A program made the translations under genes and the position numbers. Below the pieces are notes generated by a model, which saw only the letters and a list, made by a program, of their open reading frames with translations, did no database searches and had not been told where the DNA came from. From Knoellia remsis (GTDB lineage: Bacteria > Actinomycetota > Actinomycetes > Actinomycetales > Dermatophilaceae), in the NCBI RefSeq assembly GCF_003002895.1, contig NZ_PVTI01000015.1, positions 1-64,000 on the forward strand: DNA of 64,000 bases, in the 5' to 3' direction. Numbering within the stretch: the stretch's first letter is position 1; the number at the start of each line of letters is the position of its first letter. This document shows, one piece after another, positions 319 to 64,000 of this stretch.

Positions 319-388
319 ATGAATCGAGGCCGGAGCGGGCGGCATACCCCCGCCCGTGGCGCGTCGCGCGCCACTCCCCCGCACACGA

Positions 389-424
389 CGACGCCCTCGC
401 GGTCCGTGGTCCGCGAGGGCGTCG
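389..424 (-). terminator. Hairpin terminator after the secreted Ala-rich protein gene
   Basis: A 14-bp perfect GC-rich stem (389-402 with 411-424) encloses an 8-nt loop, 31 nt beyond the stop of the minus-strand gene that ends at 456. There is no clear U-run, as is common in high-GC actinobacteria. It could also stop transcription coming out of the transposase on the plus strand. Confidence 0.6.
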
Positions 425-455
425 CCTCCTTGTCCGTATGCCGCGCGCGGCCTGG

Positions 456-1070
456 TCAGTGCGGCCCGCCGCCGAGGGCGCCGGCGTCGAACGCCTTGAG
501 CACGGACGCCTTGTCCGCCGCGGTCAGGTCGCCGGAGGAGACGGCCTCGTCCAGGCGCTCGCTCAGCTCGGTCCTGCGCTCGGTCTCCCGGTCACCCCTG
601 ATCTCGTCGAGGGCGGTCGTCAGCTTCTCCTCGGAGACGTCGAGCTCCTTGGCGAGGGCCGTGGCGTATGCCGTCTGGCGCGCCTCGCGCTCGGCCGCGG
701 TCGGCTTCTGGCCCTCGGTGGGCGGGGTGGCCGGCTTGGTCGCCGCGCGCACCTTCTCGATGGCGGCCTCGACCTTCGACTCGTCGAGGCCGAGCTTCTC
801 GGCGAGGGCCTCGGCGTCCACGCCCGGGCCCCCGGGACCACGGCCGTGGTGGCCGCCGGGTGCGCCGGGTCCGTGCTCGTCGTCGGCGGACGGGGCGCTC
901 TTGCCGGGGCTTGCGCCGCTGCCGCTCGTGCTGGGCGTCGCGGACGACGAGCTGCTCGACGTCGGCGTACTCGAGTCCGCGAACGCCTGGGAGGCGCCGA
1001 AGCCGGCGACGACGATCGCCGTCGCTCCGGCGACACCCGCGAGCGCGGAGGTGGTGGTGATCCTGGCCAT
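456..1070 (-). CDS. Secreted alanine-rich protein of unknown function
   Basis: The 204-residue product starts MARITTTSALAGVAG, with a hydrophobic stretch ending near ASQAFA. This looks like a signal peptide cleaved around residue 31. A Ser/Thr-rich linker and a Gly/His-rich patch follow. The C-terminal half contains two helical repeats of the type A-L-A-x-x-L-G/D-V-S-E-x-K-L/V, found in many uncharacterised actinobacterial secreted proteins. The start at 1070 is chosen over an upstream one because AGGA lies 6-9 nt before it and it directly precedes the signal peptide. No enzyme motif is visible. Function unknown; possibly cell-envelope associated. Confidence 0.7.
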   Translation of the reverse strand: MARITTTSALAGVAGATAIVVAGFGASQAFADSSTPTSSSSSSATPSTSGSGASPGKSAPSADDEHGPGAPGGHHGRGPGGPGVDAEALAEKLGLDESKVEAAIEKVRAATKPATPPTEGQKPTAAEREARQTAYATALAKELDVSEEKLTTALDEIRGDRETERRTELSERLDEAVSSGDLTAADKASVLKAFDAGALGGGPH

Positions 1071-1214
1071 GGTGGTTCCTCTCGTCCGCGCCCGCCCGGG
1101 TGGCCGGCGCCATGGAAGAAACAGTGCTGCGCTGCGCTGTCGCGACGCCGTGGCGACCCTGTCCCCCACCTGTCAGGTCAGGGCTCGGCCCGGATCTGCG
1201 GCGCTGACCCAGGT

Positions 1215-1323: not shown

Positions 1324-1974
1324 TCAGACGTCCCCGAGGAGAGTCCGCTCGTCCCACCGGTCGAGCCCGTCACCGGGCTCCACGGCCTCGGCTCCCGGCA
1401 CGTCGGCGAGCACTCGCTCGACGAGCTCACGACCGCCGCCCACCACCGTCGCGACGATGTCGGTGTCCGACCCGACGAGCCAACCCTGCGAGTCCGGCCA
1501 GAACAGGTCCGGTGGCATCGACCACAGAGGTTCGGCGGACAGCGGAGCGAGGTCGTCCAGGACGGCCTCAAAGAGGACGTACCCGCGATGCGGCAGCTCG
1601 AGGCGCGGGGCCTGCTCCACCTCGACCGAGAGCACTCGCGGCACCGGCCCACTCCCGCCGTCGTGGAGATCGAGGTACACCGCGCCCTGACCGAAGAGAC
1701 CGCCGTAGCCCTCCCACAGCCCCGCGCGACAGGACCCGACCGGATCGAGGCCGGCCACCACCTCTCGCAGTGCGGCCAGCGGCCGCGTGCGCGGATCGTC
1801 GCTCGCGGCCGACCCACGCTCGGTCGACACCACGGGATCGGGAAGGACGGCATACGCCTCCCACGTGGCGCCGACGAGACCACCGGCCGTGCCGAACTCA
1901 CCCAGGAGCGGGCGGATCCATGCCCCGTCCGTCGCCGGCGCGGGCGTGAGGTCAGCCCAGCCACGAGGTGTCAC
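1324..1974 (-). CDS. Hypothetical protein
   Basis: Not recognised. The frame supports about 216 residues from a GTG at 1974 (VTPRGWADLTPAPATDG); an upstream GTG at 2058 would add 28 residues of low-complexity sequence. The product is acidic, rich in Gly, Leu and Trp, with no signal peptide or membrane segment. Codon usage is typical of the window, and the composition (LFWPDSQGWLVGSDTDIVATVVGG) looks like a folded cytoplasmic protein, so it is probably real. It sits alone downstream of tuf. Confidence 0.6.
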   Translation of the reverse strand: MTPRGWADLTPAPATDGAWIRPLLGEFGTAGGLVGATWEAYAVLPDPVVSTERGSAASDDPRTRPLAALREVVAGLDPVGSCRAGLWEGYGGLFGQGAVYLDLHDGGSGPVPRVLSVEVEQAPRLELPHRGYVLFEAVLDDLAPLSAEPLWSMPPDLFWPDSQGWLVGSDTDIVATVVGGGRELVERVLADVPGAEAVEPGDGLDRWDERTLLGDV

Positions 1975-2067
1975 GCCCCCATTGGACCAGACGGTCGCCT
2001 CGCACCCGCCCGCCGCGACACAGGCGGGCGGACGGCATACCCCCGACGACGCGCGCACGGCATACGG

Positions 2068-3332: not shown

Positions 3333-3475
3333 TTGATGTCCTCCTCAGGACTCTTCTTGGTGTTACGCCGTACGACCGGGCAGGACGTGGCGCGTCTTGG
3401 GGGGTTGGTGTTGTTCTGGGGTTTCGGCGGTATGCCGTGTGCTCACCAGATCCGGACCAGCGACCAGTCTAGCGG

Positions 3476-5666: not shown

Positions 5667-5705
5667 CGGTATGCCGGCCGCGCGAGGCGCGCGGCCGGCA
5701 TACCG
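5667..5705. terminator. Long hairpin between rpsG and fusA built from GTATGCCG/CGGCATAC
   Basis: A perfect stem of 17 bp (5667-5683 with 5689-5705) contains GTATGCCGGCCGCGC and its complement around a 5-nt loop. It lies 5 nt after the rpsG stop on the minus strand and 73 nt before the fusA start. It may partly terminate or process the str transcript, or protect an RNA 3' end. It is one of several hairpins in the window that begin and end with the same 8-mer. Confidence 0.6.
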
Positions 5706-6555: not shown

Positions 6556-6864
6556 CCTGGTTCCTGTTCTGTCTGGTCGATGTCGGCGGCGGGTGCCGCG
6601 CGACTCCTTGTGCTGACCGGCTCGACCCCCGCGCTCGGGTGTGTCGCACCGGTTGCTCTTCCCTGCACTCCCCGCTCACAGCCCGCATCGACGTGGTCGA
6701 CGATGGTGTGGGTGGGGCGCCCGGCAAGAGGTGGGCGGCCGCGCGCTCCCGCGCGCAGCACATGTCGTCCGGTCCTAGCCAGACACGGTTCTCCACGATA
6801 CCGGTATGCCGTGTGCGCACCAAATCGCGCGTGCTCGGCTTTCGTCCCCCGTCACACCTGCCTC
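6556..6864 (-). promoter_or_regulatory. Leader and promoter region of the str operon
   Basis: This 309-nt stretch before rpsL carries no convincing gene on either strand. It must contain the str operon promoter by position. A TAGGAC-like hexamer is present around 6773-6778 on the minus strand, but no confident -35 match was found. One GTATGCCG copy lies near 6806. Confidence 0.35.
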
Positions 6865-9964: not shown

Positions 9965-10009
9965 AAGGGCGGGTATGCCGCGTGGTGACCACGCGGCATA
10001 CCCGCCCTT
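9965..10009 (-). terminator. Terminator of the rpoBC operon, 22-bp perfect stem
   Basis: Arms 9965-9986 and 9988-10009 are exact complements around a single G. The arms contain GTATGCCG and CGGCATAC. It begins 27 nt after the rpoC stop codon and is clearly placed to end the rpoBC message. The perfect symmetry should also terminate transcription from the other side. Confidence 0.8.
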
Positions 10010-10036: not shown

Positions 10037-13966
<3,930 letters not shown>

Positions 13967-14032: not shown

Positions 14033-14084
14033 GTATGCCGGCCGCGCGAGGCGCGCGGTCCGCGTCGGCGCGCGGCCGGCATAC
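14033..14084. terminator. Hairpin in the rpoB-rpoC intergenic gap
   Basis: Arms 14033-14048 and 14069-14084 (16 bp, starting GTATGCCGGCC) are perfectly complementary around a GC-rich 20-nt loop. The stem begins 3 nt after the rpoB stop. Since rpoC must be transcribed from the same message, it is more likely a processing, pausing or stability element than a full terminator. It is nearly the same sequence as the hairpin at 5667. Confidence 0.55.
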
Positions 14085-17775: not shown

Positions 17776-17970
17776 ACCCTGTCCAATCGAAGGCGCTGGC
17801 CTCGATGCGGGTCCGGTCAGCCGTCGCATGCGGCAGGCACGCGGTGTGACCCGGAAAGGATGACTGGCGAGGGCGCCCACGTCAAGCGGGCGGACGGCAT
17901 ACGACGGCGTGTCGCGGTGCCGGAGCAGAGGAACGGGCGAGCCCGGCGCACTGCGGGGGCCGACGCGAAC

Positions 17971-18429: not shown

Positions 18430-18501
18430 GATGGCGTCCTTTCGTGTTCTTTCGTATGCCGTGAGTGGCGGTGTGGTGGTGGAGCCGGGTCCGGGACGGA
18501 C

Positions 18502-42744: not shown

Positions 42745-42768
42745 GTATGCCGTGTCGTATGCCGTTCG
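42745..42768. repeat. Tandem pair of GTATGCCG motifs
   Basis: GTATGCCGTGTC is followed immediately by GTATGCCGTTCG, a 12-nt tandem repeat in the 210-nt gap between tRNA-Thr and the ankyrin lipoprotein gene. No other structure is seen in that gap. Confidence 0.6.
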
Positions 42769-47098: not shown

Positions 47099-48292
47099 TC
47101 ACCCACGGCGCGCTCGGGCAGCGAAGGCATCCAGTGCCTCGACAACGTCCGTGGCCACATAGACGACATTGCGTCGGGCGTCACCGCTCCTCTGCAGGAT
47201 GCGGGCATCCACCAGCTGCCGGAGGGCGTTGTCAGCCGTGGGCTGAGAGATGCCCGCGCGCTCCTGGAGCGTCGCCGACGTGAGGGCCGGCTGGCTCAGC
47301 AACAGCGGCAGGACTCGCCAGACGGACGCGTGACGGCGCGCACTCACGCGACCGGACCACGCGGCATACACGGTCTCGAGATCACGCGCCAGGCGCCGAC
47401 CGTTGTCGACGGCGGCGAATGCCGCGTGGGTGAACTGCGCGACGATCGGTCCCGGATCGCCCAGGCGATAGGCGGTGAGCGCGTCGAAGTACGCGTCCGT
47501 GTCCTTCAGCAGCCCCGCTGACACGGGCAGCGTCGTCCGGGTGGTGGCACCTCCTGCCTTCAGCAGCGCGTGCATGAGGGCCCGTCCCGTCCTGCCGTTG
47601 CCGTCGTTGAAGGGGTGGATCGTCTCGAACTGGGCGTGGGCAATCGCGACGTGCGTCAGGAGGGGAAGGTCGGTTCGTTCCGTGAAGACGCACAGGTCAT
47701 CGATGCCTGCCGCGACCCGGTCATGGTGCGGGGGGACGAAGAGTGCGCCATGGGGGGTCGGAGACGGCCCGATCCAGACCTGCTCGTCGCGAAACCGGCC
47801 GGGGCGCGCGTAGTCCTCATCGCGCATGAGTGCCTCGTGGATGTCGAGGATCGCCTGAGGAGTGACGCGGTCGGCCAGGGCCACGGCGCGGTTCATCGCG
47901 TCGACATTGGCCGCGACGAGTGAGGCGTTGCTGCCGTATCTGGCCGCACCGATCTCGGCAAGGGCAAGGGCTCGCGCGCCCGTCGTGATGTTCTCGATCT
48001 GCGAGGACGACGCCGACTCGGTGCGCAGCAGGACCGAGGACAACGGCGCGAACTCGCTCGGGAACATCGCCGACAGCTCGGTGTCGAAGCGAGCGATCGC
48101 GTCTCGCGCGTCGTCGGCCTCGGCCGCCACGACGGAGTCGATGGCGAACTCCATGGTGGCGATGTCGGCCGGCACGGCAGCGGCATACGTCGGCTGGATC
48201 CTGGCTCGCTGAGCTCGCGACAGCGGCTGCTCGGACGTCGGCTCCCAGCGGATCTCTTCCCACCGGAGCGCCAGTGCAGCGGCATCAGCCAC
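47099..48292 (-). CDS. Fic family protein with C-terminal winged helix
   Basis: The 397-residue protein has the Fic catalytic loop HPFNDGNGRTGR (226-237), the N-terminal inhibitory motif SSQIEN (96-101), and a flap region. A C-terminal winged-helix domain (ATLQERAGISQPTADNALRQLVDARIL) follows. Fic enzymes AMPylate or otherwise modify target proteins; those with an HTH often control their own transcription. The GTG start is preceded by GAGG. An operator-like inverted repeat lies about 40 nt upstream. Confidence 0.88.
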   Translation of the reverse strand: MADAAALALRWEEIRWEPTSEQPLSRAQRARIQPTYAAAVPADIATMEFAIDSVVAAEADDARDAIARFDTELSAMFPSEFAPLSSVLLRTESASSSQIENITTGARALALAEIGAARYGSNASLVAANVDAMNRAVALADRVTPQAILDIHEALMRDEDYARPGRFRDEQVWIGPSPTPHGALFVPPHHDRVAAGIDDLCVFTERTDLPLLTHVAIAHAQFETIHPFNDGNGRTGRALMHALLKAGGATTRTTLPVSAGLLKDTDAYFDALTAYRLGDPGPIVAQFTHAAFAAVDNGRRLARDLETVYAAWSGRVSARRHASVWRVLPLLLSQPALTSATLQERAGISQPTADNALRQLVDARILQRSGDARRNVVYVATDVVEALDAFAARARRG

Positions 48293-48390: not shown

Positions 48391-51300
48391 TCAGACGTTG
48401 CGGCGGTACTGGCCGCCGACCTCGAAGAACGCGTCCGTCACCTGCTGCAGGGTGCACACCCGCGCGGCATCCATGAGCACCGCGAACACGTTGTCGCCGT
48501 TCATCGCGGCCTCGCGCAGCCGCTGCAGCGCCGCTTCGGCCTCTTCGCGGTGCTCCTCGCGATAGGCCCGGACGCGCGTCAGCTGCGACTCCTTCTCGGC
48601 CTCCGACGCCCGCGCCAGCTCGATGTGCTGCGGGGTGCCGCCGTCGTCACCCGACGGCTTGCGGAAGGTGTTGACGCCGATGATCGGCAGCGACCCGTCG
48701 TGCTTGCGGTGCTCGTAGAGCAGCGACTCGTCCTGGATCTTGCCGCGCTGGTAGCCGGTCTCCATCGCGCCGAGCACTCCCCCGCGCTCGTTGATCCGGT
48801 CGAACTCCTCGAGGACGGCCGCCTCGACGAGGTCGGTGAGCTCGTCGATGACATAGGACCCCTGCAGCGGGTTCTCGTTCATCGCCAGCCCCCACTCACG
48901 GTTGATGATGAGCTGGATCGCCAGCGCCCGCCGCACAGAGTCGGCGCTCGGCGTCGTCACGGCCTCGTCGAAAGCGTTGGTGTGCAACGAGTTCGCGTTG
49001 TCGTAGATCGCGATGAGCGCCTGCAGCGTCGTGCGGATGTCGTTGAAGTCCATCTCCTGCGCGTGCAGGCTCCGGCCACTCGTCTGCACGTGGTACTTGA
49101 GCTTCTGCGACCGCTCGTTCGCGCCGTACTTCTCCTTCATCGCGACCGCCCAGATGCGGCGCGCGACCCGGCCGATGACCGAGTACTCCGGGTCCATCCC
49201 GTTGGAGAAGAAGAACGACAGGTTCGGCGCGAAGTCGTTGATGTCCATCCCGCGCGCGAGATACGCCTCGACGTAGGTGAACCCGTTCGCGAGGGTGAAC
49301 GCGAGCTGGCTGATGGGGTTCGCCCCGGCCTCGGCGATGTGGTAGCCGCTGATCGACACCGAGTAGAAGTTGCGCACCTTCTGCTCGATGAACCACTCCT
49401 GGATGTCGGCCATCATCCGCAGCGAGAACTCCGTCGAGAACAGGCACGTGTTCTGCCCCTGGTCCTCCTTGAGGATGTCCGCCTGCACGGTGCCGCGCAC
49501 CGTCGACAGCGCCTGTGCCCGTATGCCGTCCGCCTCCTCGGCGTTCGGCTCGCGCCCCTCGCGCTCGCTGAACTTCGCGACCTCGGCGTCGATGACGGTG
49601 TTGAGGAAGAAGGCGAGGATCGTCGGAGCCGGGCCGTTGATCGTCATCGACACACTCGTCGACGGCGACGTGAGGTCGAACCCGTCGTAGAGCGCCTTCA
49701 TGTCGTCGAGCGTCGCCACGGACACGCCGGAGGTGCCGACCTTGCCGTAGATGTCCGGACGCGGGTCGGGGTCGCGCCCGTAGAGCGTCACGGAGTCGAA
49801 CGCCGTCGACAGGCGCGTCGCCGGCTGGCCCTCGGAGAGCAGCTTGAACCGCCGGTTCGTCCGGAACGGGTCGCCCTCCCCGGCGAACATGCGCGCCGGG
49901 TCCTCGTTGTCCCGCTTGAACGGGAAGACCCCCGCCGTGAACGGGAAGTACCCGGGCAGGTTCTCACGGCGGAGGAAGGTCACGAGGTCGCCGTTGTCGG
50001 CGAACGTCGGCACCGACACGCGGCGAATCTTGTTGCCGGACAACGACTCCTTGACCAGCGACGTGTGGAGCTCCTTGTCGCGGATCTTCACGACCTGCTC
50101 GTCACCCGAGTATGCCTCCACGACTCCCGGCCAGCGCTCGATCGCCTCACCGACCTCGGTCGGCAGCTCCTTGCGTGCCTCCGCCAGCAGCCCGTCCACC
50201 GCATGGTCCTCGTACCCCGCGGCAGCCAGCTCGTCGTCCACGAACTCGAGCCGCTGCACGCGACGCGCCTGCGCGGCATACCTCTCGGTCTGCTCGTGGT
50301 AGCCGCGGACGGTGTCGGCGATCTCGGAGAGGTAGCGCACCCGCGAGGTCGGGACGACCTGGCGGATCGTCGACGAGTGCCGCACGTCGACCGTGGGCAG
50401 CACACCCTCGGCGAACTCAAGCCCCTTCTCCGACAACAGGTTTCGCAGCTCCTGGTAGAGCGCGGTCACTCCGTCGTCGTTGAACGTCGCGGCCGAGGTG
50501 CCGAAGACCGGCATGTCCTCGGGCTTCTTGCCGAACGCCTCCCGGTTGCGCACGAGCTGGCGCCCGACGTCGCGCAGCGCGTCCATCGCGCCGCGACGCT
50601 CGAACTTGTTGATGGCGACGACGTCGGCGAAGTCGAGCATGTCGATCTTCTCGAGCTGGCTCTGTGCGCCGAACTCCGGCGTCATGACATACATCGACAC
50701 GTCCGCGAACGGCACGATCGCGGCGTCGCCCTGACCGATGCCGGGGGTCTCGATGATGATGAGGTCGTATGCCGCGACCTTGAGGATCGTGATGACGTCC
50801 TCGAGCGCTTCGGGCACCTCGCGGCCACCGCGGGTCGCGAGCGAGCGGAAGAAGATCCGGTCCCCGTCGAGGGAGTTCATCCGGATCCGGTCACCGAGGA
50901 GGGCTCCACCACCGCGGCGCCGGGTCGGGTCGACGGCGACGACCGCGACGCGCAGCTTGTCCTGCTGGTCGACGCGCAGCCGGCGGACGAGCTCGTCCGT
51001 GAGGCTGGACTTGCCCGAACCGCCGGTGCCGGTGATGCCAAGGACGGGGACGTGCCGGCCCTCGGCGGCCTTCGTCAGCTCGGCCCGGTCGGCCTCCGAG
51101 AGCTTGCCCGTCTCAGCGCCGGTGATGGCCCGGGCCACGGCGGTGCGGTCCCCGGAAAGAACGGCGGACACGTCCGCCGCGCGGACGGCATACAGGTCGG
51201 TGTCGGCATCCTTGACGACCTGGTTGATCATGCCGACGAGGCCCATCCGCTGGCCGTCCTCGGGACTGAAGATCGTGACCCCGGCGTCGCGCAGGCGGGC

Positions 51301-52489: not shown

Positions 52490-52500
52490 GCGGTGAGTAT

Positions 52501-52535
52501 GCCGTCCGCTCGCCGAGTAGGCCGTCCGCTCGCCG
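52501..52535. repeat. 15-bp direct repeat next to a GTATGCCG motif
   Basis: GCCGTCCGCTCGCCG occurs at 52501-52515 and 52521-52535. The first copy is fused to GTAT to give the motif GTATGCCGTCCGCTCGCCG. The same GTATGCCGTCCGCTC run occurs on the opposite strand at 32553-32567. Confidence 0.65.
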
Positions 52536-52555
52536 TCGCCGTTCGCGCCGCTCCC

Positions 52556-52575: not shown

Positions 52576-52597
52576 CCGCGAGCAGCGCGTATGCCGG

Positions 52598-55294
52598 TCA
52601 GTCACCTTGCGGGGCCGCGACCGGGACGTAGCCGGTCCCGAAGGTCGAGCAGAAGGCCGGATCCGGAGCGACGGTCAGCCCCTCGACGGCGTTGCGGGCC
52701 TGCGTCCGGCCGACACTCCACGAGAAGACGTCGTCACCTTCCGCAACCCTCGTCATGGCGCGCCCACCGAGGACGCAGGCCGCCTGCTGCTCGGACAGGC
52801 CGTCGACGATCGCCGGGGTGGCGTCCGGGCTGAGCCCGGCGAGGTAGTGCGTGTCGAGCTTGCCCGTCTCGTGGAACCGCTCGATGTTGCGGGCGGCGAC
52901 CCAGCCGTCGGGGTTCATCACCGCGAACCCGAGGAAGAACAGCGCGCCGGTGACGAGGGCCGCCCGCGGCAGCCACGAACCGTTGAGCCGGACGACGGCG
53001 ACGATCATGAGGACGAGCAGCAGTCCCAGCCACAGCTCGAACCCGTCGACGAAGACGCGCACGACCGTGTAGCCGTAGGCCTCCTGGTAGAGGCTCATCC
53101 GGTAGAGCGCCGACGCGACGACGGCCAGCGTCAGCACACACAGCGTGATGAGCGACGCGCGGAGCCACAGCCGGTCCGAGGCCGTCTCCTGAGGAGCCTT
53201 GCGGGTGGCCAGCCCGATGACGACGAAGGTGAAGAAGGTCGCCACGGTGAGCTGGCCGAAGCCCTGGTGGACGTACTCGGCATACGTGAGACCCGTTGTC
53301 TCCCTGAGGTATTCGTGGCCTCCCCACATCGCCGTGGCCTGGGCGACGAGGAACATGGCGAACAGGGCGGTGACGACGCCGAGCGGCACGAGCCACTCCC
53401 AGCGGTGCCGGACCGGCGCACCGCGCGGCACGTCGAGGTCGGCGATGCGCGGCGGGTTGAGCGCGAGGTACGACCCGGCCAGTGCGACACCGGCGACGAA
53501 GACGAAGACGAAGATCCGCGCGATGATCGAGTCCCACCGCAGGTCGGGCACGAGCGAGCTCGCCCACGACCCGAAGAGCGCGTCACCGGAGGCGAACAGG
53601 CCACCGAAGAGGACGAGCCCGACGAGTGCGATCGCCGCCGTCCGCAGCACCGGCCAGAGCAACGACATGCGGCTCGTCGCGGTGAGCGTCCGCCCGAGCA
53701 GCGGCAGCCCGCGCAGGCCCGCGAGCACCCAGGACATCGCGGACAGCGGGATGCTGAGGACTGACCTGGCGCCGGTCACCGCGGCAGCCAGCAACAGTGC
53801 GGCGAGCATGGTGCCGAGCACGGCGACCCACTCGGCCGCCCGGATCGCGGTCATCGCGGTCAGAGCCACCCCGAGCCCCACGGCGAGGACACGCCACAAG
53901 CTTCGCCGCTCAGTGGACGCGGAAAGGATGAGCGCGGCGGCGAGCATCGCGACGAGCCCGGCCGCGATGCCGATGCGCCGCTCCGGCAGGGTGAGCGCTC
54001 CGAGCAGCCCGATGCCCAGCGCACCGAGGAGGAGCCGTGGCTGCGGGCCGAGGCTGGACTCGGGCCAGAAGCGACCGAAGAGCTGGTCGGTCCATGGTTC
54101 CGGCGTCGGTCGAGCGGAGCCCTTGGCCGGCTGCGTCGAGGGTCGAGACGGTGGCGTGGTCGCAGAGGGCGGGACGGCCTTGGTCATGGTTTCCTCCTGT
54201 GCCACAAGGGCATTCGTCGATCCTGAGCTGTGGGTGATCGCGACGGCGGGCGTCGCGGCGGTGACGGTTGCGTGAGCGGTCGTATGCCGCGGCAGGACCG
54301 CGCGCAGCCGCGCGCCTCGTCCGCCGGGCGGAGTCGGGACGACGGCGATCGAGCCGCCGTGGAGCTCGGCCACCCATGAGGCGATGGCCAGGCCGAGACC
54401 GGTGCCACCGCCGGAGTCGTCGCCGGTGCCGAAGCGGCGGAAGACGTCGGCGGCCTTCTCTGCCGGGATGCCCGGGCCCTCGTCGACGAACTCGAGGGAC
54501 CACGTCCGGTCGTCGAGAACCGTTGCCACGAGTGCGATCTCGCCACCGGCGGGCGAGTGGCGGGCGGCGTTGTCGAGCAGGTTCGCCACGAGCTGCGCGA
54601 GCCGCGCGGGGTCGGCGGTGACCGAGAACTCCTCGGGGAGCACCCGGCATACGAAACGGACGTCGCGCGAGCCGAGCTCGGCCTCGCTGACCGCTGCACG
54701 CAGCAGGTCACCCACGCGCACCTCGCCGAGGCGCAGGGGCGCGACGCCGGCATCGATGCGGGAGAGGTCGAGCAGGTCGCCGACGAGGTCGCTGAGGCGC
54801 TCGGACTGGGTGAGCGCGCCACGCAGCGCGGCGTCGTCGGGCTGGACGACGCCGTCGACGAGGTTCTCGAGGAGGGCGCGCTGGGCGGTGAGGGGCGTGC
54901 GGAGCTCGTGCGACACGGTGGCGATGAGCTGGCGGCGCTGCTGGTCGGAGTCGGCGAGGTCGGCGGCCATGGCATTGAAGGCGCGCGACAGCTGGCCCAC
55001 CTCGTCGGTCGACGCGGTCGAGACGCGCTGGGCGTAGTCCCCCGCAGCCATCGAGCTCGCGGCGCGGGTCATCTCACGCAGCGGCGCGGTCATGCCTCGC
55101 GCGAGCCACTGGACGACCGCGAGCGCGACGGCGACGGTCACGGGCAGGGTGACCCAGAGCGGCATACCCGCCCGGTCCCCGATCGTCGCGAACAGCGCGG
55201 CCACGACGACGCTCGCGCCGACGAGGACGCCGAGCTTGACCTTGATCGAGCCGACCCGTTCGAGCGGCTCGCGCGGGGCGCCGCCGGGGCTCAC
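52598..55294 (-). CDS. Histidine kinase in frame with a DUF4153/4173-like membrane protein
   Basis: The 898-residue frame has two halves. Residues 1-345 are a sensor kinase: two membrane segments, HAMP, H-box ATVSHELRTPL with His129, N-box LVANLLDNAARHS, and FVDEGPGIP and GGGTGLGLA ATP-lid motifs. Residues about 415-810 form a polytopic domain with about a dozen membrane segments, like DUF4173 proteins, with a C-terminal external region containing cysteines. An ATG at codon 370 has its own AGGAGG, so a separate membrane protein may also be made. It overlaps the response regulator by 4 nt. Confidence 0.82.
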   Translation of the reverse strand: MSPGGAPREPLERVGSIKVKLGVLVGASVVVAALFATIGDRAGMPLWVTLPVTVAVALAVVQWLARGMTAPLREMTRAASSMAAGDYAQRVSTASTDEVGQLSRAFNAMAADLADSDQQRRQLIATVSHELRTPLTAQRALLENLVDGVVQPDDAALRGALTQSERLSDLVGDLLDLSRIDAGVAPLRLGEVRVGDLLRAAVSEAELGSRDVRFVCRVLPEEFSVTADPARLAQLVANLLDNAARHSPAGGEIALVATVLDDRTWSLEFVDEGPGIPAEKAADVFRRFGTGDDSGGGTGLGLAIASWVAELHGGSIAVVPTPPGGRGARLRAVLPRHTTAHATVTAATPAVAITHSSGSTNALVAQEETMTKAVPPSATTPPSRPSTQPAKGSARPTPEPWTDQLFGRFWPESSLGPQPRLLLGALGIGLLGALTLPERRIGIAAGLVAMLAAALILSASTERRSLWRVLAVGLGVALTAMTAIRAAEWVAVLGTMLAALLLAAAVTGARSVLSIPLSAMSWVLAGLRGLPLLGRTLTATSRMSLLWPVLRTAAIALVGLVLFGGLFASGDALFGSWASSLVPDLRWDSIIARIFVFVFVAGVALAGSYLALNPPRIADLDVPRGAPVRHRWEWLVPLGVVTALFAMFLVAQATAMWGGHEYLRETTGLTYAEYVHQGFGQLTVATFFTFVVIGLATRKAPQETASDRLWLRASLITLCVLTLAVVASALYRMSLYQEAYGYTVVRVFVDGFELWLGLLLVLMIVAVVRLNGSWLPRAALVTGALFFLGFAVMNPDGWVAARNIERFHETGKLDTHYLAGLSPDATPAIVDGLSEQQAACVLGGRAMTRVAEGDDVFSWSVGRTQARNAVEGLTVAPDPAFCSTFGTGYVPVAAPQGD
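54185..54199 (-). promoter_or_regulatory. Strong internal ribosome-binding site and ATG inside the kinase fusion
   Basis: On the minus strand AGGAGG is followed after 4 nt by ATG at 54185-54187 (MTKAVPPS), exactly at the junction between kinase and membrane domain. A signal this good at the domain border suggests separate translation of the 529-residue membrane protein in addition to, or instead of, the fusion. Confidence 0.6.
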
Positions 55295-56059: not shown

Positions 56060-57016
56060 TCAGGCGGTGGCGCGGTGGCGGGTGCGGAACACCGTCGGTG
56101 TCAGGCCGGTGCACTTGGTGAAGTGGTGGCGGAGCAGCGCGGCCGTGCCGAACCCGACCTCACGCGCGATCTGCTCGACGGGCAGGTCGGTCTCCTCGAG
56201 CATCTCGCGGGCACGCAGCACCCGCTGGTCGACGAGCCACTGGTGCGGGGTCGTGCCGGTCTCGGCCCCGAACCGGCGCGCGAACGTCCGCGGCGACATC
56301 GCGGCATACTGCGCGAGCTCGGCGACGGTGTGCGTCTCGGCGAGGTTCTCGAGCATGAACGCGAGCACCGGCCCGAGGCTGTCGGCGTCGGTCACCGGCA
56401 CCGGCCGGTCGATGAACTGGCGCTGCCCGCCGTCGCGGTGGGGCGAGACGACCATCCGCCGCGCGATCCGGTTGGCGACCGTGGCGCCGAGCTCGTGCCG
56501 CACGAGGTGCATACAGGCGTCGAGGCCGGCCGCGGTGCCGGCGCTCGTGATGACGTTGCCGTCGTGGGCATAGAGGACGTCGGGGTCGACCTTGAGGTTC
56601 GGGTATGCCGCCGCGAGACGATCCGTGTACCTCCAGTGCGTCGTGCACTCGCGTCCGTCGAGAACCCCGGCCTCGGCGAGGGTGAAGGCGCCCGAGCAGA
56701 CCGACAGCACCCAGGCGCCACGCTCGACCGCGTCACGCACGGCGGCCTTGACCGCCTCGGACGGCTCGTGGGCTGACTCGCTGGCCGGGATGGCGAGCAG
56801 GTCGACGTCGGCGGCGGCGTCGAGCCCGTCCTCGACCGCGACCCGCACTCCCGCTTCGCTCGCGAGCGGGCGGCCTGGGTGCTCGGTCACGACCCGGAAG
56901 TCGAACGCCGGGACACCGTCGTCGACGCGGTCGACGCCGAAGACCTCGCAGAGCACGCCGTACTCGAAGGTCGCGACGGGGTCCTGGAGCAGGACGGCGA
57001 TGGAACGCAGGGCCAT
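56060..57016 (-). CDS. GlxA-family transcriptional regulator (DJ-1/PfpI plus AraC HTH)
   Basis: The 318-residue protein has an N-terminal DJ-1/GATase1-like domain (SVCSGAFTLAEAGVLDGRECTTHW with the nucleophile-position Cys) and a C-terminal AraC double HTH (SPRTFARRFGAETGTTPHQWL, VEQIAREVGFGTAALLRHHFTKCTG). Similar proteins regulate small-molecule catabolism. Divergent from the small gene at 57108, with direct repeats in between that could be its binding site. Confidence 0.9.
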   Translation of the reverse strand: MALRSIAVLLQDPVATFEYGVLCEVFGVDRVDDGVPAFDFRVVTEHPGRPLASEAGVRVAVEDGLDAAADVDLLAIPASESAHEPSEAVKAAVRDAVERGAWVLSVCSGAFTLAEAGVLDGRECTTHWRYTDRLAAAYPNLKVDPDVLYAHDGNVITSAGTAAGLDACMHLVRHELGATVANRIARRMVVSPHRDGGQRQFIDRPVPVTDADSLGPVLAFMLENLAETHTVAELAQYAAMSPRTFARRFGAETGTTPHQWLVDQRVLRAREMLEETDLPVEQIAREVGFGTAALLRHHFTKCTGLTPTVFRTRHRATA

Positions 57017-57388: not shown

Positions 57389-57419
57389 AGGTGACTGACC
57401 GGCATACGCCGGAATGCGA

Positions 57420-58643
57420 CTAGCGACCGCGGCGGGGCGGGAGGGCGAGCCGGCCGATCTTGCGGAAGACCGAGCCGAGCTGGTGGCCCAGCGAGCCGGT
57501 GTTGTACGGCAGGCCGTAGCGCTCGCACGCCTCCCGGACCTCGGCCGCGACCTGCGGGTAGCGGCGCGCGGGGATGTCCGGGAAGAGGTGGTGCTCGATC
57601 TGGTGCGAGAGGTTGCCGGACAGAACGTGGAAGAGCTCGCTGCCGGTGATGTTCGCCGAGCCGAGCAGCTGGCGGACGTACCACTGGGCGCGCGTCTCGT
57701 TCTCGGTCTCCTCCATCGAGAACGTCGCGACGCCCGTCGGGAAGTGCCCGCAGAAGATGATGTTGAAGGCCCAGATGTTGCGCACGAGGTTCGCGACCGC
57801 GTTGCCGGCGAACGTCAACGGGAACAGCGGGCCGGTGAGCGCCGGGAAGAGGACGTAGTCCTTGAGGACCTGGCGCCCCATCTTGCGGCGGATCCGGCGC
57901 AGCACCGGCTTGGTCTCGGCCCAGCCGCGCTCCCCCGAGGCGATGTTCTCGACCTCGAGGTCGTGCAGCGCGACGCCCCACTCGAAGAACACCATGAGCA
58001 GGAAGGCGTTGACCGGGTTGAGCAGGTGGTGCGGCCGCCACTTCTGGTCGTCGTCCATGCGCAGGATGCCGTAGCCGATGTCGCGGTCCTTGCCGACGAT
58101 GTTGGTGAAGGTGTGGTGCAGGTAGTTGTGCCCGTACTTCCAGTTCTCGGCGGGCGCCATCGTGTCCCACTCGAACATGCGCGACGACAAGCCGGGGTCG
58201 CCCATCCAGTCGTACTGGCCGTGCATGACGTTGTGGCCGATCTCCATGTTGTCGAGGATCTTGCTGATCGACAGCGACGCGACGGCGAGCGGCCAGGCGG
58301 GCGGCACGTAGAACAGCGCGCGTCCGGCGACCTCGAATCCCCTCTGCCACTTCACGATTCGGCGGATGTATGCCGCGTCCTCGTCTCCGAGGGAGGCGAT
58401 CACCTTCTCGCGGATCGCGTCCATCTCGGCGCCGAACGCCTCGAGCTCCTCGGGGCTGAGCAGGTCGCTGATCGAGGTGGTGTGCTCGGTCGAGACCGGA
58501 GGCGTCGTGAACGCTTCGGGAGTATGCCGGGTGCTCGCGTCGTCGGTCGATGTGGCCGCTGCGGGCGTGGCCGGCTTCGGGGTGCGAACGGGCGTGGTGC
58601 GCGCCGGCGGGCTGTCCGCCGGGCGGGTTGCGGTGAGAGTCAT
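57420..58643 (-). CDS. Membrane fatty-acid desaturase
   Basis: The 407-residue enzyme has the three His boxes of membrane desaturases: HNVMH (137-141), HNYLHH (172-177) and HQIEHH (347-352). Two membrane hairpins are present. The QIEHH form is typical of acyl-CoA/acyl-lipid desaturases. It needs electrons from the ferredoxin-reductase type protein encoded just upstream. Start at 58643; a much longer frame upstream is a shadow of the reductase gene. N-terminal 60 residues are Pro/Thr/Ala-rich. Confidence 0.9.
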   Translation of the reverse strand: MTLTATRPADSPPARTTPVRTPKPATPAAATSTDDASTRHTPEAFTTPPVSTEHTTSISDLLSPEELEAFGAEMDAIREKVIASLGDEDAAYIRRIVKWQRGFEVAGRALFYVPPAWPLAVASLSISKILDNMEIGHNVMHGQYDWMGDPGLSSRMFEWDTMAPAENWKYGHNYLHHTFTNIVGKDRDIGYGILRMDDDQKWRPHHLLNPVNAFLLMVFFEWGVALHDLEVENIASGERGWAETKPVLRRIRRKMGRQVLKDYVLFPALTGPLFPLTFAGNAVANLVRNIWAFNIIFCGHFPTGVATFSMEETENETRAQWYVRQLLGSANITGSELFHVLSGNLSHQIEHHLFPDIPARRYPQVAAEVREACERYGLPYNTGSLGHQLGSVFRKIGRLALPPRRGR

Positions 58644-58692: not shown

Positions 58693-59754
58693 TCAGAGGT
58701 CGACCGTGCAGTCGCCGACGGGGGCGTTGACGCAGATGCGGATGTCGTCGTCGGGCATGGCGTTCTCCTCACCATTGACGACGTTGCGCACCGCGCCCTC
58801 GGGCTTGCGGGCGGTGCAGGTGAAGCAGATGCCCATGCGGCAACCGAACTCGGGGGTGAGCCCGGCGGCCTCGGCCTGCTCGAGGATCGTGGCGCCGCTG
58901 TTGGCGACCCGGGTTCCGCTGCGGGAGAACGTGATCGTGCCCTCGGCGTCCCCCGACGCCGCCGAGGGGACGCGGAAGTACTCGACCCGCAGACGGTCGC
59001 TCCCGGCATACGCCTCCTGCACGGTCTCGATGAGACCGGCGGGGCCGCAGGCGAAGGTGTCGACGTCGGCGAAGTCGGGGACGAGCCGCGCGAGTGCATC
59101 ACGGGTGAAGCGCTCGCCGCCGGCGCGGGTGTGGACGAGGTGGACGTGGACGTTGGGCGGCAGGGTGGCGATCTCGTCGGCGAAGATCTGGTGCTGGGCC
59201 GAGCGGGCGTAGTGCAGGAACGTGATGGTGCCGCCGTAGCCGCGTCGCATGAGGGTGCGGACCATCGACATGACGGGCGTGATGCCGGAACCGGCGGAGA
59301 TGAGGATGAGCCGGGACGGCAGCGGTTCGGGGAGGGTGAACTCACCCTCGGCCTGGCCGAGGTGGACGAGCGCGCCGGGTCGGGCGAGCTCGGCGAGGTG
59401 GGCCGAGACGGCGCCCTCCTCGCGGGCCCGCACGGTAATGGTGATGTCGTCGCCGGGACCGGACTCCGGGGAGGAGATGGAGAACGCCCGGGTGAGCCGG
59501 CGGGCGGTGCCGAGCTCGATGCCGAGCTGGACGTGCTGGCCGGCGCGGTGGCCGCGCCACGTGTTCGACGGGCGCAGGCGCAGGGTCGTGACGGGGGCTC
59601 CGGCGCGGGTCTCGCGGGTGACGTCGACGACGCGGGCGCGAACCTCGTGCGCCGCCCAGAGCGGGTTGACGATCTCGAGGTAGCGGTCGATGCCGTGCGG
59701 TGACGCGAGCGCGGTGACGACCGGCGAGCGAAGCAGGGACTGAACAACACTCAT
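58693..59754 (-). CDS. Ferredoxin-NAD(P)H reductase fused to a plant-type [2Fe-2S] ferredoxin
   Basis: The 353-residue protein has an FAD-binding barrel (RAFSIS, 89-94), an NAD(P)-binding part (GSGITP 155-160, CGP 236-238), and a C-terminal [2Fe-2S] domain with Cys305, Cys310, Cys313 and Cys341. It transfers electrons from NAD(P)H to the desaturase. This pairing resembles mycobacterial DesA3 with Rv3230c. AGGAGGT precedes the start. It heads the operon 49 nt ahead of the desaturase. Confidence 0.92.
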   Translation of the reverse strand: MSVVQSLLRSPVVTALASPHGIDRYLEIVNPLWAAHEVRARVVDVTRETRAGAPVTTLRLRPSNTWRGHRAGQHVQLGIELGTARRLTRAFSISSPESGPGDDITITVRAREEGAVSAHLAELARPGALVHLGQAEGEFTLPEPLPSRLILISAGSGITPVMSMVRTLMRRGYGGTITFLHYARSAQHQIFADEIATLPPNVHVHLVHTRAGGERFTRDALARLVPDFADVDTFACGPAGLIETVQEAYAGSDRLRVEYFRVPSAASGDAEGTITFSRSGTRVANSGATILEQAEAAGLTPEFGCRMGICFTCTARKPEGAVRNVVNGEENAMPDDDIRICVNAPVGDCTVDL

Positions 59755-60643: not shown

Positions 60644-60646
60644 GCC

Positions 60647-61231
60647 TCACACGTCGGCCGGGCGGTCGACGTCGCGCCCGGTCGCGAGGTCGCCGCACTC
60701 GACGAGGTGAGGGCGGTGGGTGTCGAACCAGTCGCGCGCCCCGTGATCCCCCACCGCGTGGGTGCGCACGGAGGTCCAGTGGTCGCGCCCGATGAGGACC
60801 GGGTGCCCGCCTCGCCCGTCGTATGCCGCCCGCACCAGGGCGCCGTCGAGGTCACCGTCGACGGCGTCGAGGAGCCGGGCGTGGACGTCGCTGCCGACGT
60901 CGGGCAGATCGACGAGCATGAGCACGACCGCTCTCGCGTCACCGCCTTCGAGGGAGTCCAGACCGCGGCGCAGCGAAGCCCCAGCACCCTCGTCCCAGTT
61001 CGCCGCCTCGACGACCGTGCCGCCGACCGCCTGCGCCCGTCGCGTGACACTGGGCGCGGCGGAGCCGACGACGACGTGCACGTCCGTGACCCCGGCGTCC
61101 CGCAGCCGCGACACGGTGAGCTCGACGAGGGACGGCCCGGACGGCGAGAGCCGGAGCAGCGCCTTGGGGCCGCCCATGCGGCGCCCCGCCCCCGCCGCGA
61201 GGACGAGCCCGGCCACCGCGGCGTCACTCAT
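60647..61231 (-). CDS. MobA-like nucleotidyltransferase
   Basis: The 194-residue protein has the NTP-transferase signature GLVLAAGAGRRMGGPKALLRL, the metal-binding MLVDLPDV and GGHPVLIGRDHW. It belongs to the molybdenum-cofactor cytidylyl/guanylyltransferase-like family (NTP_transf_3). No Mo-cofactor genes are nearby, so the acceptor is unknown. It converges with tetR, with a 3-nt gap. Confidence 0.87.
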   Translation of the reverse strand: MSDAAVAGLVLAAGAGRRMGGPKALLRLSPSGPSLVELTVSRLRDAGVTDVHVVVGSAAPSVTRRAQAVGGTVVEAANWDEGAGASLRRGLDSLEGGDARAVVLMLVDLPDVGSDVHARLLDAVDGDLDGALVRAAYDGRGGHPVLIGRDHWTSVRTHAVGDHGARDWFDTHRPHLVECGDLATGRDVDRPADV

Positions 61232-61276
61232 CGGACCACCATGGCAGAGGAGCCGGGTGGGTGGGGCGCCGCGGCA

Positions 61277-62863
61277 TCACTTCGTGGCGATCTCCCAGAG
61301 AGTGGTCGTCCCGGAAACCTCGTTGCCGACGGCAAGGAGCGGCGTGCCCGTGGGGCTGTCCTCGCCAGCGATGAAGAGGATCCCCTCGGGCCCGAGGTCA
61401 CCTGCCGTGCCGGCCTCCGGGTCGCCGCTCTTGTCCCGGTTGCTGCCGTAGCCGGCGATGCGCCCGTTCGCCGGGTCGGTGACGTCGACCGCCACGATGC
61501 CGCTGTTGCGCTCCAGTCCGACGAAGGCGTAGGTGCGACCGCCGAGCTTGCCGAGGTCGAGACCCTCCGGCTCGGGACCCTTGTTGTCGCTGCGCTTGTC
61601 GAAGCCGTTCTCGGTGTGGTCGGCGTTGAAGAGCTCCGGGTCGACCGTGGCCGTGAGCTGCTCGAGGGCGTCACCGGAGTCCCAGAGGAGGGTGCCGTCG
61701 GCGGCGCGGACGCTGACGGAGCGACCGCCGAAGACCTGCAGCTCGGTGTAGCCGTTCGGTCCCTTCGGCGAGGTCGCCGTCGACATGTTGAGCCGGCCGA
61801 TCGCCGAGTCCTGCTGCAGCGCAGCGGCATTGGGGAACGCGGCCGGGTCGAGGGTGACGTCCTTGATGCGCTCCTCCTCGGAGAAGCAGTCGTAGTCGCG
61901 GGCGTCGCCCTCGTTCGCGGTGACGAGGTAGCTCTGGCCCTTCACGGCATACGCGGCGATGGCGTCGGGCTGGTACATGCCCTTGACCGGCCACTGCGCG
62001 ATGGCGATCTTCTTGTCCTTGTCGGAGGCGTCGAGGCCCTGGCCCGCGAGCGAGTGGTCCTTGAGCCCGAGCGGTGCGATGTCGGTGACCGTCGCGGTGC
62101 GGACGTCGACGGTGGCGATGGCGTTGGCCTCCTGCAGGGTGACCCACGCGGTCTTCCCGTTCGTCGAGGTCGTGATGTATTCGGGCTCGAGGTCCTGCGC
62201 CACGGTCGCGCCAGGCCCGAAGATCCGCACGCCCTGCGCGCGCAGCGCGTCGACCTCGTCGTTGTATGCCGTGAAGCCGGCGGTCTTCGCGCTCGCCTTC
62301 TCGGCGCCCTGGCGGAGGTCGATGACGGAGACGCTGCCCTCGGGGTCGACCTGCCCGGCGCAGTAGCCCTCCGGCTCGCCCTCGTTCGCGACGAGCGCCC
62401 ACTCGCCGTTGCCGGTGAAGGTGACCATGTCGGGGAGCGAGCCGACGGTGACCCGGCCGCGGACGGCATACGTCGCGGCGTCGAAGAAGGTGACCGAGCC
62501 GGGGTCGGTCTTGGTGTCGGCCTGCTGCGCGACGGCGACGAGGCCACCACTCACGGCGACGCTGTTGGCGCCGGGGGTGGCGAGCGCGGTGAGCTTGACG
62601 GGGTTGCGCGGGTCGCGGATGTCGAGGACGTCGACGGTGCCGGCCTGCGCGTTGACGACGAAGAGCCGCTGACGGGTCGGGTCGTGGGCGACGATCTCGG
62701 ACGCGCCCTCGTCGAAGGCGCCGGTGGCGTAGGTGCCGATCGGGGTCAGCGTGACCTCGGGCGCGGGCGGTGCGGCGACGGCGGACGTGCCGGCCGTGGA
62801 GACGAGTGCGGTGGTCGCGGCAGCGGCGACGACGACGCTGGCAAGGGTGCGGGAAGAGAGCAT
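61277..62863 (-). CDS. Secreted choice-of-anchor I family beta-propeller protein
   Basis: The 528-residue exported protein starts MLSSRTLASVVVAAAATTALVSTAG, a signal peptide ending near AVAAPP. The rest is a beta-propeller with repeats such as GASEIVAHDPTRQRLFVVNAQAGTVDVLDIRDP and the family marker EGDARDYDCFSEEERIKDV. EPEGLDLGKLGGRTYAFVGLERNSGI and GPEGILFI follow. Choice-of-anchor I proteins are extracellular and of unclear function, some linked to phosphatases. It is a single gene with the ATG at 62863. Confidence 0.88.
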   Translation of the reverse strand: MLSSRTLASVVVAAAATTALVSTAGTSAVAAPPAPEVTLTPIGTYATGAFDEGASEIVAHDPTRQRLFVVNAQAGTVDVLDIRDPRNPVKLTALATPGANSVAVSGGLVAVAQQADTKTDPGSVTFFDAATYAVRGRVTVGSLPDMVTFTGNGEWALVANEGEPEGYCAGQVDPEGSVSVIDLRQGAEKASAKTAGFTAYNDEVDALRAQGVRIFGPGATVAQDLEPEYITTSTNGKTAWVTLQEANAIATVDVRTATVTDIAPLGLKDHSLAGQGLDASDKDKKIAIAQWPVKGMYQPDAIAAYAVKGQSYLVTANEGDARDYDCFSEEERIKDVTLDPAAFPNAAALQQDSAIGRLNMSTATSPKGPNGYTELQVFGGRSVSVRAADGTLLWDSGDALEQLTATVDPELFNADHTENGFDKRSDNKGPEPEGLDLGKLGGRTYAFVGLERNSGIVAVDVTDPANGRIAGYGSNRDKSGDPEAGTAGDLGPEGILFIAGEDSPTGTPLLAVGNEVSGTTTLWEIATK

Positions 62864-63013
62864 GCGGGTCAAGGTAGGAACGCAGCCTCGGAAGCGCGGG
62901 TGGAACGGGTGAACATCTCATGTCCACCAGTCGACGACTTCAAGGCGGGGCCGGCCGCGTGAGTCGGGGCACGAACCGCGCTGTGCGGCACCACGATGGG
63001 AGAGGATCGCTGC

Positions 63014-64000
63014 ATGTCCGTGCAGACCCGAGCCGCAGTGCTGCGTGAGCCGACCGACGAGCACCCCTTCGCGACGTCCGCGCCGCTCGGCGTCGAGACC
63101 GTCACCCTCGACGGACCCGGCCCGGGTGAGGTCCTCGTCCGCATCGAGGCCGCCGGGCTGTGCCACTCCGACCTCTCCGTCGTCAACGGCGACCGGCCCC
63201 GCCCGGTCCCCATGGTGCTCGGGCACGAAGCCGCCGGTGTCGTCGAGGAGGTCGGCGCCGGGGTCACCGACGTGGCACCGGGTGACCGGGTCGTGTGCTC
63301 CTACGTCCCGTCGTGTGGCCACTGCGCGAACTGTGCCGGTGGCAACCCGGTCCGCTGCGCCGACGCCCAGGCCGCGAACCGGGAGGCGCGCCTCGTCACC
63401 GGTCGCCGTCCGTTCCGCGACGCCGACGGTGCCGAGCTGCACCAGCACCTCGGTGTCAGCGCCTTCGCCGAGCGGACCGTCGTCTCCCCTCGCTCGCTCA
63501 TCAGGGTCCCGGACGAGGTGCCGCTCGACGTGGCGGCGGTCTTCGGGTGCGCCGTCCTCACCGGCGCCGGCGCGGTCCTCAACACCGCCGCCGTGCGACC
63601 GGGCGAGTCCGTCGCCGTCGTCGGCCTCGGCGGCGTCGGCATCTCGGCCGTCATGGCCGCGGCTCTCGGCGGCGCGCACCCCGTCATCGCCGTCGACACC
63701 GTCGAGTCCAAGCTCCAGTCGGCCCGCGACGTCGGCGCGACCCACACCGTCCTCGCCTCGGACACCGCGGTCGAGGAGATCAAGGACCTCACCGGCGGCG
63801 GAGCCGCCGCCACGATCGAGGCCGCCGGCCACCCCGCGGCACTCGCCACGGCATACGGAGCAACGAAGGTGGGCGGCCGCGTCGTCGTCGCCGGTCTCCC
63901 GCACCCGCGCCACGAGATCGCCGTCCCGATCGCGGCGCTCGTCGGCGAGGAGAAGTCGATCCTCGGCTCCTACATGGGCAGCTCGGTGCCGCGGCGCGAC
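63014..64000 (+). CDS. Zinc-dependent alcohol dehydrogenase (3' end beyond window)
   Basis: The 329 visible residues start MSVQTRAAVLREPTDEHPFA at 63014, with AGAGGA upstream. The catalytic zinc ligands are in AAGLCHSDLS and LGHEAAGVV. The structural zinc cysteines are at CGHCANCAGGNPVRC. The nucleotide-binding site VGLGGVGI is followed by an acidic Asp (VDTVE), suggesting NAD preference. The pattern is the class III/mycothiol-type medium-chain ADH group. The substrate is not known. The C-terminal end is outside the window. Confidence 0.9.
   Translation, partial: MSVQTRAAVLREPTDEHPFATSAPLGVETVTLDGPGPGEVLVRIEAAGLCHSDLSVVNGDRPRPVPMVLGHEAAGVVEEVGAGVTDVAPGDRVVCSYVPSCGHCANCAGGNPVRCADAQAANREARLVTGRRPFRDADGAELHQHLGVSAFAERTVVSPRSLIRVPDEVPLDVAAVFGCAVLTGAGAVLNTAAVRPGESVAVVGLGGVGISAVMAAALGGAHPVIAVDTVESKLQSARDVGATHTVLASDTAVEEIKDLTGGGAAATIEAAGHPAALATAYGATKVGGRVVVAGLPHPRHEIAVPIAALVGEEKSILGSYMGSSVPRRD

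Follow-up and report, generated by a model that had tools for sequence, protein, structure and literature searches.

A strand-symmetric octamer found about once per kilobase in Knoellia, with one-base dialects in related genera: a candidate DNA uptake word

We analysed the first 64 kb of contig NZ_PVTI01000015.1 of the soil bacterium Knoellia remsis (the window; 69.6% G+C), in which our own simple gene caller placed 59 genes, together with the genome to which it belongs (3.57 Mb in 62 contigs; G000 in our numbering of genomes) and with relatives from the host family (f1), which we take to be the Dermatophilaceae, formerly Intrasporangiaceae. The window, which includes rpoB and rpoC, is strewn with one octamer, CGGCATAC (GTATGCCG on the other strand), for which an earlier reading made from the letters alone (the sequence-only reading) had claimed some sixty copies where about two were expected, in both orientations and without strand bias. 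Exact matching found 62 copies between positions 340 and 63856 where an order-2 Markov model predicts 1.3, and a chance origin is ruled out by these counts. The octamer is the top-ranked 8-mer of the window, the forward strand reading GTATGCCG 31 times and CGGCATAC 31 times. Enrichment is just as high in the rest of the genome: 3,277 copies (1655 and 1622 by strand) compare with 276 for a reversed-pattern control, which corresponds to 917 per Mb or about one copy per kb. Strands are thus balanced genome-wide, and 24 bins of at most 20 kb reveal no consistent bias (the replication origin not being mapped). Spacing in the window (mean 1041 bp, standard deviation 1006 bp) is near that of random placement, apart from a small surplus of copy pairs 10-30 bp apart. 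The earlier observation is real, and far stronger than was visible from the window alone.

The copies lie in genes and between genes, as had been stated, at very different densities. In 847 kb of the genome, 742 copies were found, 513 of them genic (69%; 0.69 per kb) and 229 intergenic (2.31 per kb, 3.4 times the genic density), and our gene calls place 23 of the 62 window copies between genes. Intergenic density was 1.31 per kb between divergent genes, 2.93 between tandem genes and 2.76 between convergent genes. The GC-rich flank extends further in intergenic copies than in genic ones, whose flank information is near background at most positions. The sequence-only reading had also held that the octamer fits several reading frames and is no codon-pair effect, and here reading frame matters more than it allowed, 220 of the 270 genic copies in 464 kb spelling Ala-Tyr or Tyr-Ala. 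The word itself is still chosen, because synonymous-codon shuffling within each gene removes nearly all copies, leaving 37 against 503 observed in coding sequence (18.2 against 264 in the 464 kb, 30 shuffles). Codon usage as the origin of the octamer is ruled out by the same shuffling. The sequence-only reading had named two results that would refute it, a codon-usage model giving this frequency and no enrichment elsewhere in the genome, and neither was obtained.

When mismatches were allowed, the octamer stood at 503 copies against 39 expected in coding sequence and its 24 one-base neighbours at 0-1.9 times expectation, with CGGCGTAC depleted (45 against 122 expected, 0.37). In the window the commonest one-mismatch relative, CGGCATCC, occurs 14 times against 6.3 expected, and none is comparable to the octamer. 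The flank extensions proposed earlier are borne out in part: 27 of the 62 window copies have an A directly before CGGCATAC, a preference that is real and only soft. Since the octamer is enriched and its one-base variants are not comparably so, the signal is in essence the eight bases themselves, an A in front being softly preferred.

We scanned 117 relatives for CGGCATAC, CGGCATCC and CGGCGTAC, comprising 71 genomes of the family and 46 from 19 other families of the order; the two latter words had been chosen from 20-kb samples of motif-poor relatives, and the density cut-offs were set by hand. The family genomes divide into 39 with CGGCATAC, three with CGGCATCC, five with CGGCGTAC, one with two dialects (G051; 1217 CGGCATAC and 2195 CGGCATCC) and 23 below all cut-offs. 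In the motif-poor family genomes CGGCGTAC ranges from 62 to 209 per Mb, the upper value belonging to the intermediate G026, which was counted as having none. None of the 46 genomes from other families is high for CGGCATAC, and three of them pass another cut-off: G106 and G090 (both f19) with 4,491 and 1,548 CGGCATCC, and G108 (f5, 73% complete), whose 2.5 Mb contain 770 CGGCGTAC (control 74). Among 346 genomes drawn from across the phylum, CGGCATAC was high only within the family, with a weak outside excess in G386 (161, control 30). For the relatives, six of 40 sampled loci, shorter than 10 kb, were left unscored, another sampling scored 45 of 80 loci, and the coding test leaves out G061 and G022, in which gene calling was improper. 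In this sampled sequence the dialect words likewise exceed their codon-shuffled counts (CGGCATCC 66 against 10 in G033 and 112 against 25 in G106, CGGCGTAC 75 against 14 in G047), smaller samples of G055 (15 against 4) and G024 (7 against 3) point in the same direction, and an intergenic excess is present in G033, G055 and G024.

Other words were met in some motif-poor genomes. In G045 (L117, L209, L210) and G044 (L116, L295) CGAAGGGG(G) is enriched instead, in and between genes, as it is in Janibacter limosus (L002), which lacks CGGCATAC and has a CGAAGGGG(G) inverted pair after rpoC; G064 (L294) is enriched in CACCGCATC and CCGCATCG, with 13 against 0.6 and 25 against 3.8 in coding sequence. 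Nothing comparable was seen in 20-40 kb of G017, G018, G052, G014, G027, G043, G048 and G056. The genera of G009 and G060, and of G061 and G010, each have one species above the dialect cut-off and the other below. Two further counts concern single genomes, CGACGTAC in G061 (18 against 1.4; L207, L208) and CGTACGTC in G031 (12 against 1.3; L113); CGACGTAC-like words are a looser variant of the CGGCGTAC dialect. Outside the family, enrichment of words related to CGGCATCC (GGCATCC, CGGATGC) is seen in G090 (L139, L205, L206), Homoserinibacter (L024), Agromyces (L025) and Gryllotalpicola (L023).

Close pairs of the octamer (less than 100 bp apart) show a preferred arrangement. Over 464 kb, 17 are ordered GTATGCCG..CGGCATAC, 14 of these with both copies intergenic, nine have the opposite order and 28 are direct, several of the latter being 64-68-bp tandem units. 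Several inverted pairs form near-perfect hairpins past gene ends, and four in the window (Table 1) fold at -43 to -54 kcal/mol (z -6.2 to -10.0). The hairpin in the rpoB-rpoC gap was compared in 14 sequences: all six Knoellia (the window genome and five others) have GTATGCCG..CGGCATAC in the same place, G033 has GGATGCCG..CGGCATCC, and G047 and Nocardioides jejuensis, the latter presumably a member of another family, have GTACGCCG..CGGCGTAC. In all nine sequences that have the pair, both arms match the word enriched in that host, and no such pair lies in the gap of the remaining five (G018, Janibacter limosus, Homoserinibacter, Agromyces and Cellulosimicrobium). No other single observation is as clear as this orthologous hairpin, in which the dialect shifts in two arms at once. 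At the hairpin downstream of rpoC, three of the five other Knoellia retain the exact pair, G008 having a GTGTGCCG version and G004 a different hairpin. A scan of viral contigs for the inverted pair returned at least 120 stretches, matches that look like chance by a rough, uncomputed estimate; the 80 viral-contig loci among the matches listed hold 27 further octamer copies in 667 kb.

Apart from the hairpins, intergenic 64-68-bp tandem units containing CCAATTGG and the octamer lie at G000:C1:93247-93400, C2:46-190, C3:286-430, C3:22621 and window positions 52497-52596. The heptamer CAATTGG, which occurs between the window octamer copies at 52497 and 52589, is about 46 times over-represented (51 against 1.1 expected in 400 kb). 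A single open reading frame at 52598-55294 (-) of the window joins HAMP, HisKA and HATPase domains to DUF4153, an arrangement that looks unusual.

Table 1. Copies of the octamer in the window, as hairpin-forming inverted pairs and singly (+, CGGCATAC on the forward strand).
Feature	Position	Strand or octamer positions	Context
octamer	340..347	+	intergenic
octamer	436..443	-	intergenic
octamer	666..673	-	
octamer	1848..1855	+	
octamer	2033..2040	+	intergenic
octamer	2058..2065	+	intergenic
octamer	3430..3437	-	intergenic
hairpin, inverted pair GTATGCCG..CGGCATAC	5669..5703	5669-5676 (-), 5696-5703 (+)	directly after stop of gene 5711-6181 (-); -43.3 kcal/mol, z -7.7
octamer	6804..6811	-	intergenic
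hairpin, inverted pair	9973..10001	9973-9980 (-), 9994-10001 (+)	downstream of rpoC (10037-13966, -); -46.2 kcal/mol, z -10.0
octamer	10139..10146	-	within rpoC
hairpin, inverted pair	14033..14084	14033-14040 (-), 14077-14084 (+)	rpoB-rpoC gap; -52.7 kcal/mol, z -6.2
octamer	17895..17902	+	intergenic
octamer	18454..18461	-	intergenic
octamer	22443..22450	-	
octamer	24067..24074	+	
octamer	25039..25046	-	
octamer	25221..25228	+	
octamer	28017..28024	+	
octamer	28967..28974	+	
octamer	31482..31489	-	intergenic
octamer	31521..31528	-	intergenic
hairpin, inverted pair	32516..32567	32516-32523 (-), 32560-32567 (+)	intergenic; -54.1 kcal/mol, z -6.7
octamer	34985..34992	-	
octamer	35772..35779	+	
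octamer	36136..36143	-	
octamer	38716..38723	-	
octamer	40211..40218	+	
octamer	40525..40532	+	
octamer	41927..41934	+	
octamer	42745..42752	-	intergenic
octamer	42757..42764	-	
octamer	44963..44970	+	
octamer	45200..45207	-	
octamer	46512..46519	-	
octamer	47362..47369	+	
octamer	48181..48188	+	
octamer	49521..49528	-	
octamer	50274..50281	+	
octamer	50767..50774	-	
octamer	51186..51193	+	
octamer	52497..52504	-	intergenic
octamer	52589..52596	-	intergenic
octamer	53278..53285	+	
octamer	54282..54289	-	
octamer	54645..54652	+	
octamer	55160..55167	+	
octamer	56302..56309	+	
octamer	56603..56610	-	
octamer	57400..57407	+	intergenic
octamer	58368..58375	-	
octamer	58522..58529	-	
octamer	59004..59011	+	
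octamer	60821..60828	-	
octamer	61945..61952	+	
octamer	62264..62271	-	
octamer	62464..62471	+	
octamer	63849..63856	+	intergenic

Comparison with syntenic regions of five congeners, in which 34-42 of the 59 window genes could be aligned at 84-86% amino acid identity, found the word kept in 62 of 108 cases. At conserved amino acids the motif codon (TAT or GCA) was kept in 52 of 65 comparisons, while these codons at other places were kept in 87 of 212 (Fisher P 3e-8, a value that is overstated, as the five comparisons share sites). The longest motif-free stretch in the 847 kb measures 41.5 kb (G000:C2:118563-160054, loci L246-L249), a length that on average holds about 36 copies, and the next longest measures 10.5 kb. 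Twenty of the 35 genes called in or beside the 41.5-kb stretch were scanned, ten with Pfam and ten with PHROGs; they include genes for a TrwC relaxase, a TraG/TraD-type coupling protein and an ArdC-like domain, as well as ParB-like and primase genes, and the stretch is therefore probably for the most part an integrated conjugative element. At its far end lie dprA and an integrase-family gene taken as a putative xerC. Four shorter stretches without the motif (7-10.5 kb) gave two phage-type integrases in one, glycosyltransferases in another, and an ABC transporter or a TPR protein besides unknowns in the remaining two. Gaps between copies no longer than about 6 kb, those at rpoB and rpoC among them, are no commoner than chance. 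The tad locus has two adjacent phage-type integrases directly beside it, in motif-free sequence (G000:C3:50224-53753, L098).

In the Knoellia genome the neighbour of comEC is comEA-like (HHH and SLBB domains), and a tad locus encoding T2SSE, two T2SSF-type, TadE and Tad proteins adjoins a peptide-chain release factor gene. We compared 43 motif-rich with 22 motif-poor genomes, all at least 90% complete (G035, G036, G037, G038, G040 and G062 were left out). Two or fewer T2SSF matches were found in none of the former and eight of the latter (0/33 against 5/16 at genus level), and the TadC orthologue of the Knoellia tad locus is missing from three and ten, respectively. The T2SSF counts suggest that motif-rich genomes have more than one tad locus. 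PilM (PF11104), a marker of the type IVa pilus, is present in 22 of the 117 genomes and in three of the 71 in the family: G027, G032 (motif-rich) and G063. As judged from PilM only, which this genus lacks, uptake based on a type IVa pilus is ruled out there. On a tree of 28 ComEC loci (22 from the family and six outgroups; 30 loci had been retained out of 111 matches), in which several deep forks are open, all the motif labels together need seven changes, compared with 14.7 on average after shuffling.

The explanation that we favour would be an uptake or self-recognition word for transformation, with a Tad (Flp) pilus and ComEA/ComEC as the route. We regard CGGCATAC, at a probability of roughly 0.6, as a genome-wide self-recognition word, most likely a DNA uptake sequence (DUS) for natural transformation in Knoellia and related genera, with one-base dialects elsewhere. 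An uptake or genome-iterated signal was among the roles that the sequence-only reading had listed, and the evidence favours it because the word is exact, shows no strand bias, is in excess between genes, forms inverted pairs at gene ends, has dialects and is absent from the putative conjugative element. In the presumably competent cells, a surface receptor of the Tad competence pilus would read the word by binding DNA from kin, which would then be pulled in via ComEA/ComEC and recombined into the chromosome. Segments carrying the word would be taken up more often, so that copies would accumulate and be retained wherever the sequence is permissive (between genes, in hairpins beyond gene ends, at synonymous codons), conjugative DNA that has only just arrived would have none, and a change in receptor specificity would bring about a genome-wide dialect shift.

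The pattern appears to fit the DUS of Neisseriaceae and the uptake signal sequences (USS) of Pasteurellaceae better than Chi, KOPS (FtsK-orienting polar sequences), the cyanobacterial HIP1 (highly iterated palindrome 1) or restriction sites. Like the DUS, the octamer is a short exact word at about one copy per kb; between genera the dialects are one or two bases apart, a single genome (here G051) can have two of them, inverted pairs stand where genes end (at terminators in the DUS), and copies are located in permissive regions (PMC3630211). Common to both as well is an atypical distribution in integrated conjugative elements (compare PMC7371117). Unlike the DUS, the octamer occurs in an actinomycete with Tad genes and without PilM in its genus, and is unrelated in sequence. 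With the USS it shares the lack of strand bias and the non-coding excess, about two-thirds of the copies lying in reading frames in both cases (65% for the USS of Haemophilus influenzae, 69% here; PMC1939737); phylum, envelope and word are different. In Micrococcus luteus, also an actinobacterium, tad genes are needed for transformation and the competence pilus is built jointly by two tad islands (PMC4322843), which resembles the multiple tad loci suggested for motif-rich genomes; the abstract of that study describes no uptake word. The octamer works like an uptake-sequence code, yet we do not file it as DUS or USS, since a type IVa pilus and a graded enrichment of mismatched forms were not found and uptake is predicted only.

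Several observations weigh against an uptake word. Known uptake sequences, the USS included, are reported to show graded over-representation of mismatched forms (Bakkali 2007, PMC1939737), and the lack of any such gradient in Knoellia coding sequence means that the receptor would have to be strict. ComEC is present in 111 and T2SSF in 116 of the 117 genomes, too commonly for presence to discriminate. The Tad correlation, taken without phylogenetic correction, has exceptions in G003, G008 and G054, motif-rich genomes that lack the TadC orthologue. PilM, which stands here for the type IVa pilus with its ComP-like minor pilin receptor of the DUS, is absent from all nine genomes of the genus and from most of the family, in a search for PilM and not for the minor pilins themselves. 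G009 and G060 are congeneric and both have Tad, yet CGGCATCC stands at 382 per Mb (just above the cut-off) in one and 175 per Mb (below it) in the other. The intergenic excess is missing in G047 (1.09 against 1.05 per kb) and reversed in G106 (0.57 against 1.52 per kb), CGACGTAC-like words are preferred to CGGCGTAC in what was sampled of G031 and G061, a looser word than the cut-off table says, and the named Homoserinibacter and Agromyces have related enriched words yet no pair in the rpoB-rpoC gap.

Among the alternatives, a site about 1 kb apart for a nucleoid-associated or chromosome-organising protein, whose specificity would drift between genera, is unlikely, if the least so; nucleoid-protein sites and architecture marks were also among the roles listed in the sequence-only reading. 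The near-random spacing over the regions read, the equal strands, the conservation in congeners and the intergenic excess would suit it, and absence from new mobile DNA would suit any slowly acquired chromosomal mark; there is, however, no candidate protein, and neither the close inverted pairs at gene ends nor repeated loss and re-wording between related genera would be much expected of an essential architectural protein. HIP1, too, occurs in thousands of copies, and a mark of its kind, modified as a word or core by a conserved orphan methyltransferase and kept for repair, replication timing or nucleoid organisation, seems to us rather improbable. In density and exactness the octamer does resemble HIP1, likewise an exact octamer and tied to orphan methyltransferases (PMC4390886); in the Knoellia genome PF01555 has one match and PF00145 one partial match. 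HIP1, however, is a palindrome and the octamer is not. A methyltransferase site was another role listed in the sequence-only reading, and these two methyltransferase families do not track the word: PF01555 and PF00145 are scattered over 30 and 40 of the 71 family genomes, which weakens the idea for these two of the relevant families (PF02384, PF07669 and PF02086 were not searched). Ten motif-rich genomes at least 90% complete have neither (G002, G011, G013, G015, G028, G029, G033, G042, G053, G055), and a shared PF01555 or PF00145 methyltransferase as the reader is ruled out by them.

The remaining explanations are all very improbable. Chi and KOPS are over-represented words of about octamer size and are oriented with replication. 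A recombination or replication signal of this sort (Chi is mentioned in PMC4390886) would match in word size and over-representation, yet strand-oriented signals are ruled out by the balance of strands genome-wide and across bins. A mutational by-product or codon effect, e.g., deamination of GTACGCCG to GTATGCCG or a preference for Ala-Tyr/Tyr-Ala codon pairs, could draw on the depletion of CGGCGTAC, which is one transition away and a synonymous neighbour in both main frames. Such an origin is hardly credible in view of the codon shuffle, the highest density outside genes, a precursor that looks too rare (the CGGCGTAC densities of motif-poor family genomes against that of CGGCATAC here), the enrichment of CGGCATCC or CGGCGTAC in other genera and the zero copies in the 41.5-kb stretch. 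To the spread of a repetitive extragenic palindromic (REP) or miniature inverted-repeat transposable element (MITE)-like sequence, or of terminator hairpins containing the word, we give equally little credence: the GC-rich flank of intergenic copies and the copies in CCAATTGG-bearing tandem units and in hairpins would fit, but most copies are genic, with flanks near background, and orthologous hairpins change their word in step with the host genome.

To our knowledge, uptake words are known only from Neisseriaceae and Pasteurellaceae, and among the titles listed in searches of the open-licence literature none concerns such an octamer repeat in actinobacteria. Why uptake words evolve is debated. 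We consider the chances even that this is the first uptake code outside those two proteobacterial families, an actinomycete code comprising three or more related dialects (CGGCATAC, CGGCATCC, CGGCGTAC), perhaps along with unrelated words (CGAAGGGGG, CACCGCATC), which would be read by a Tad-type competence pilus and would limit gene exchange between genera. If uptake is the wrong explanation, an octamer at 3,000 copies with genus-specific spelling would still need a reader protein. If it is the right one, a third independent origin in Gram-positives, with many genera in which the word is changed or lost, would serve as a natural experiment in the spread and switching of uptake codes. It would also allow predictions as to which of these bacteria are transformable and with what DNA, and would let the absence of the word mark foreign DNA in their genomes.

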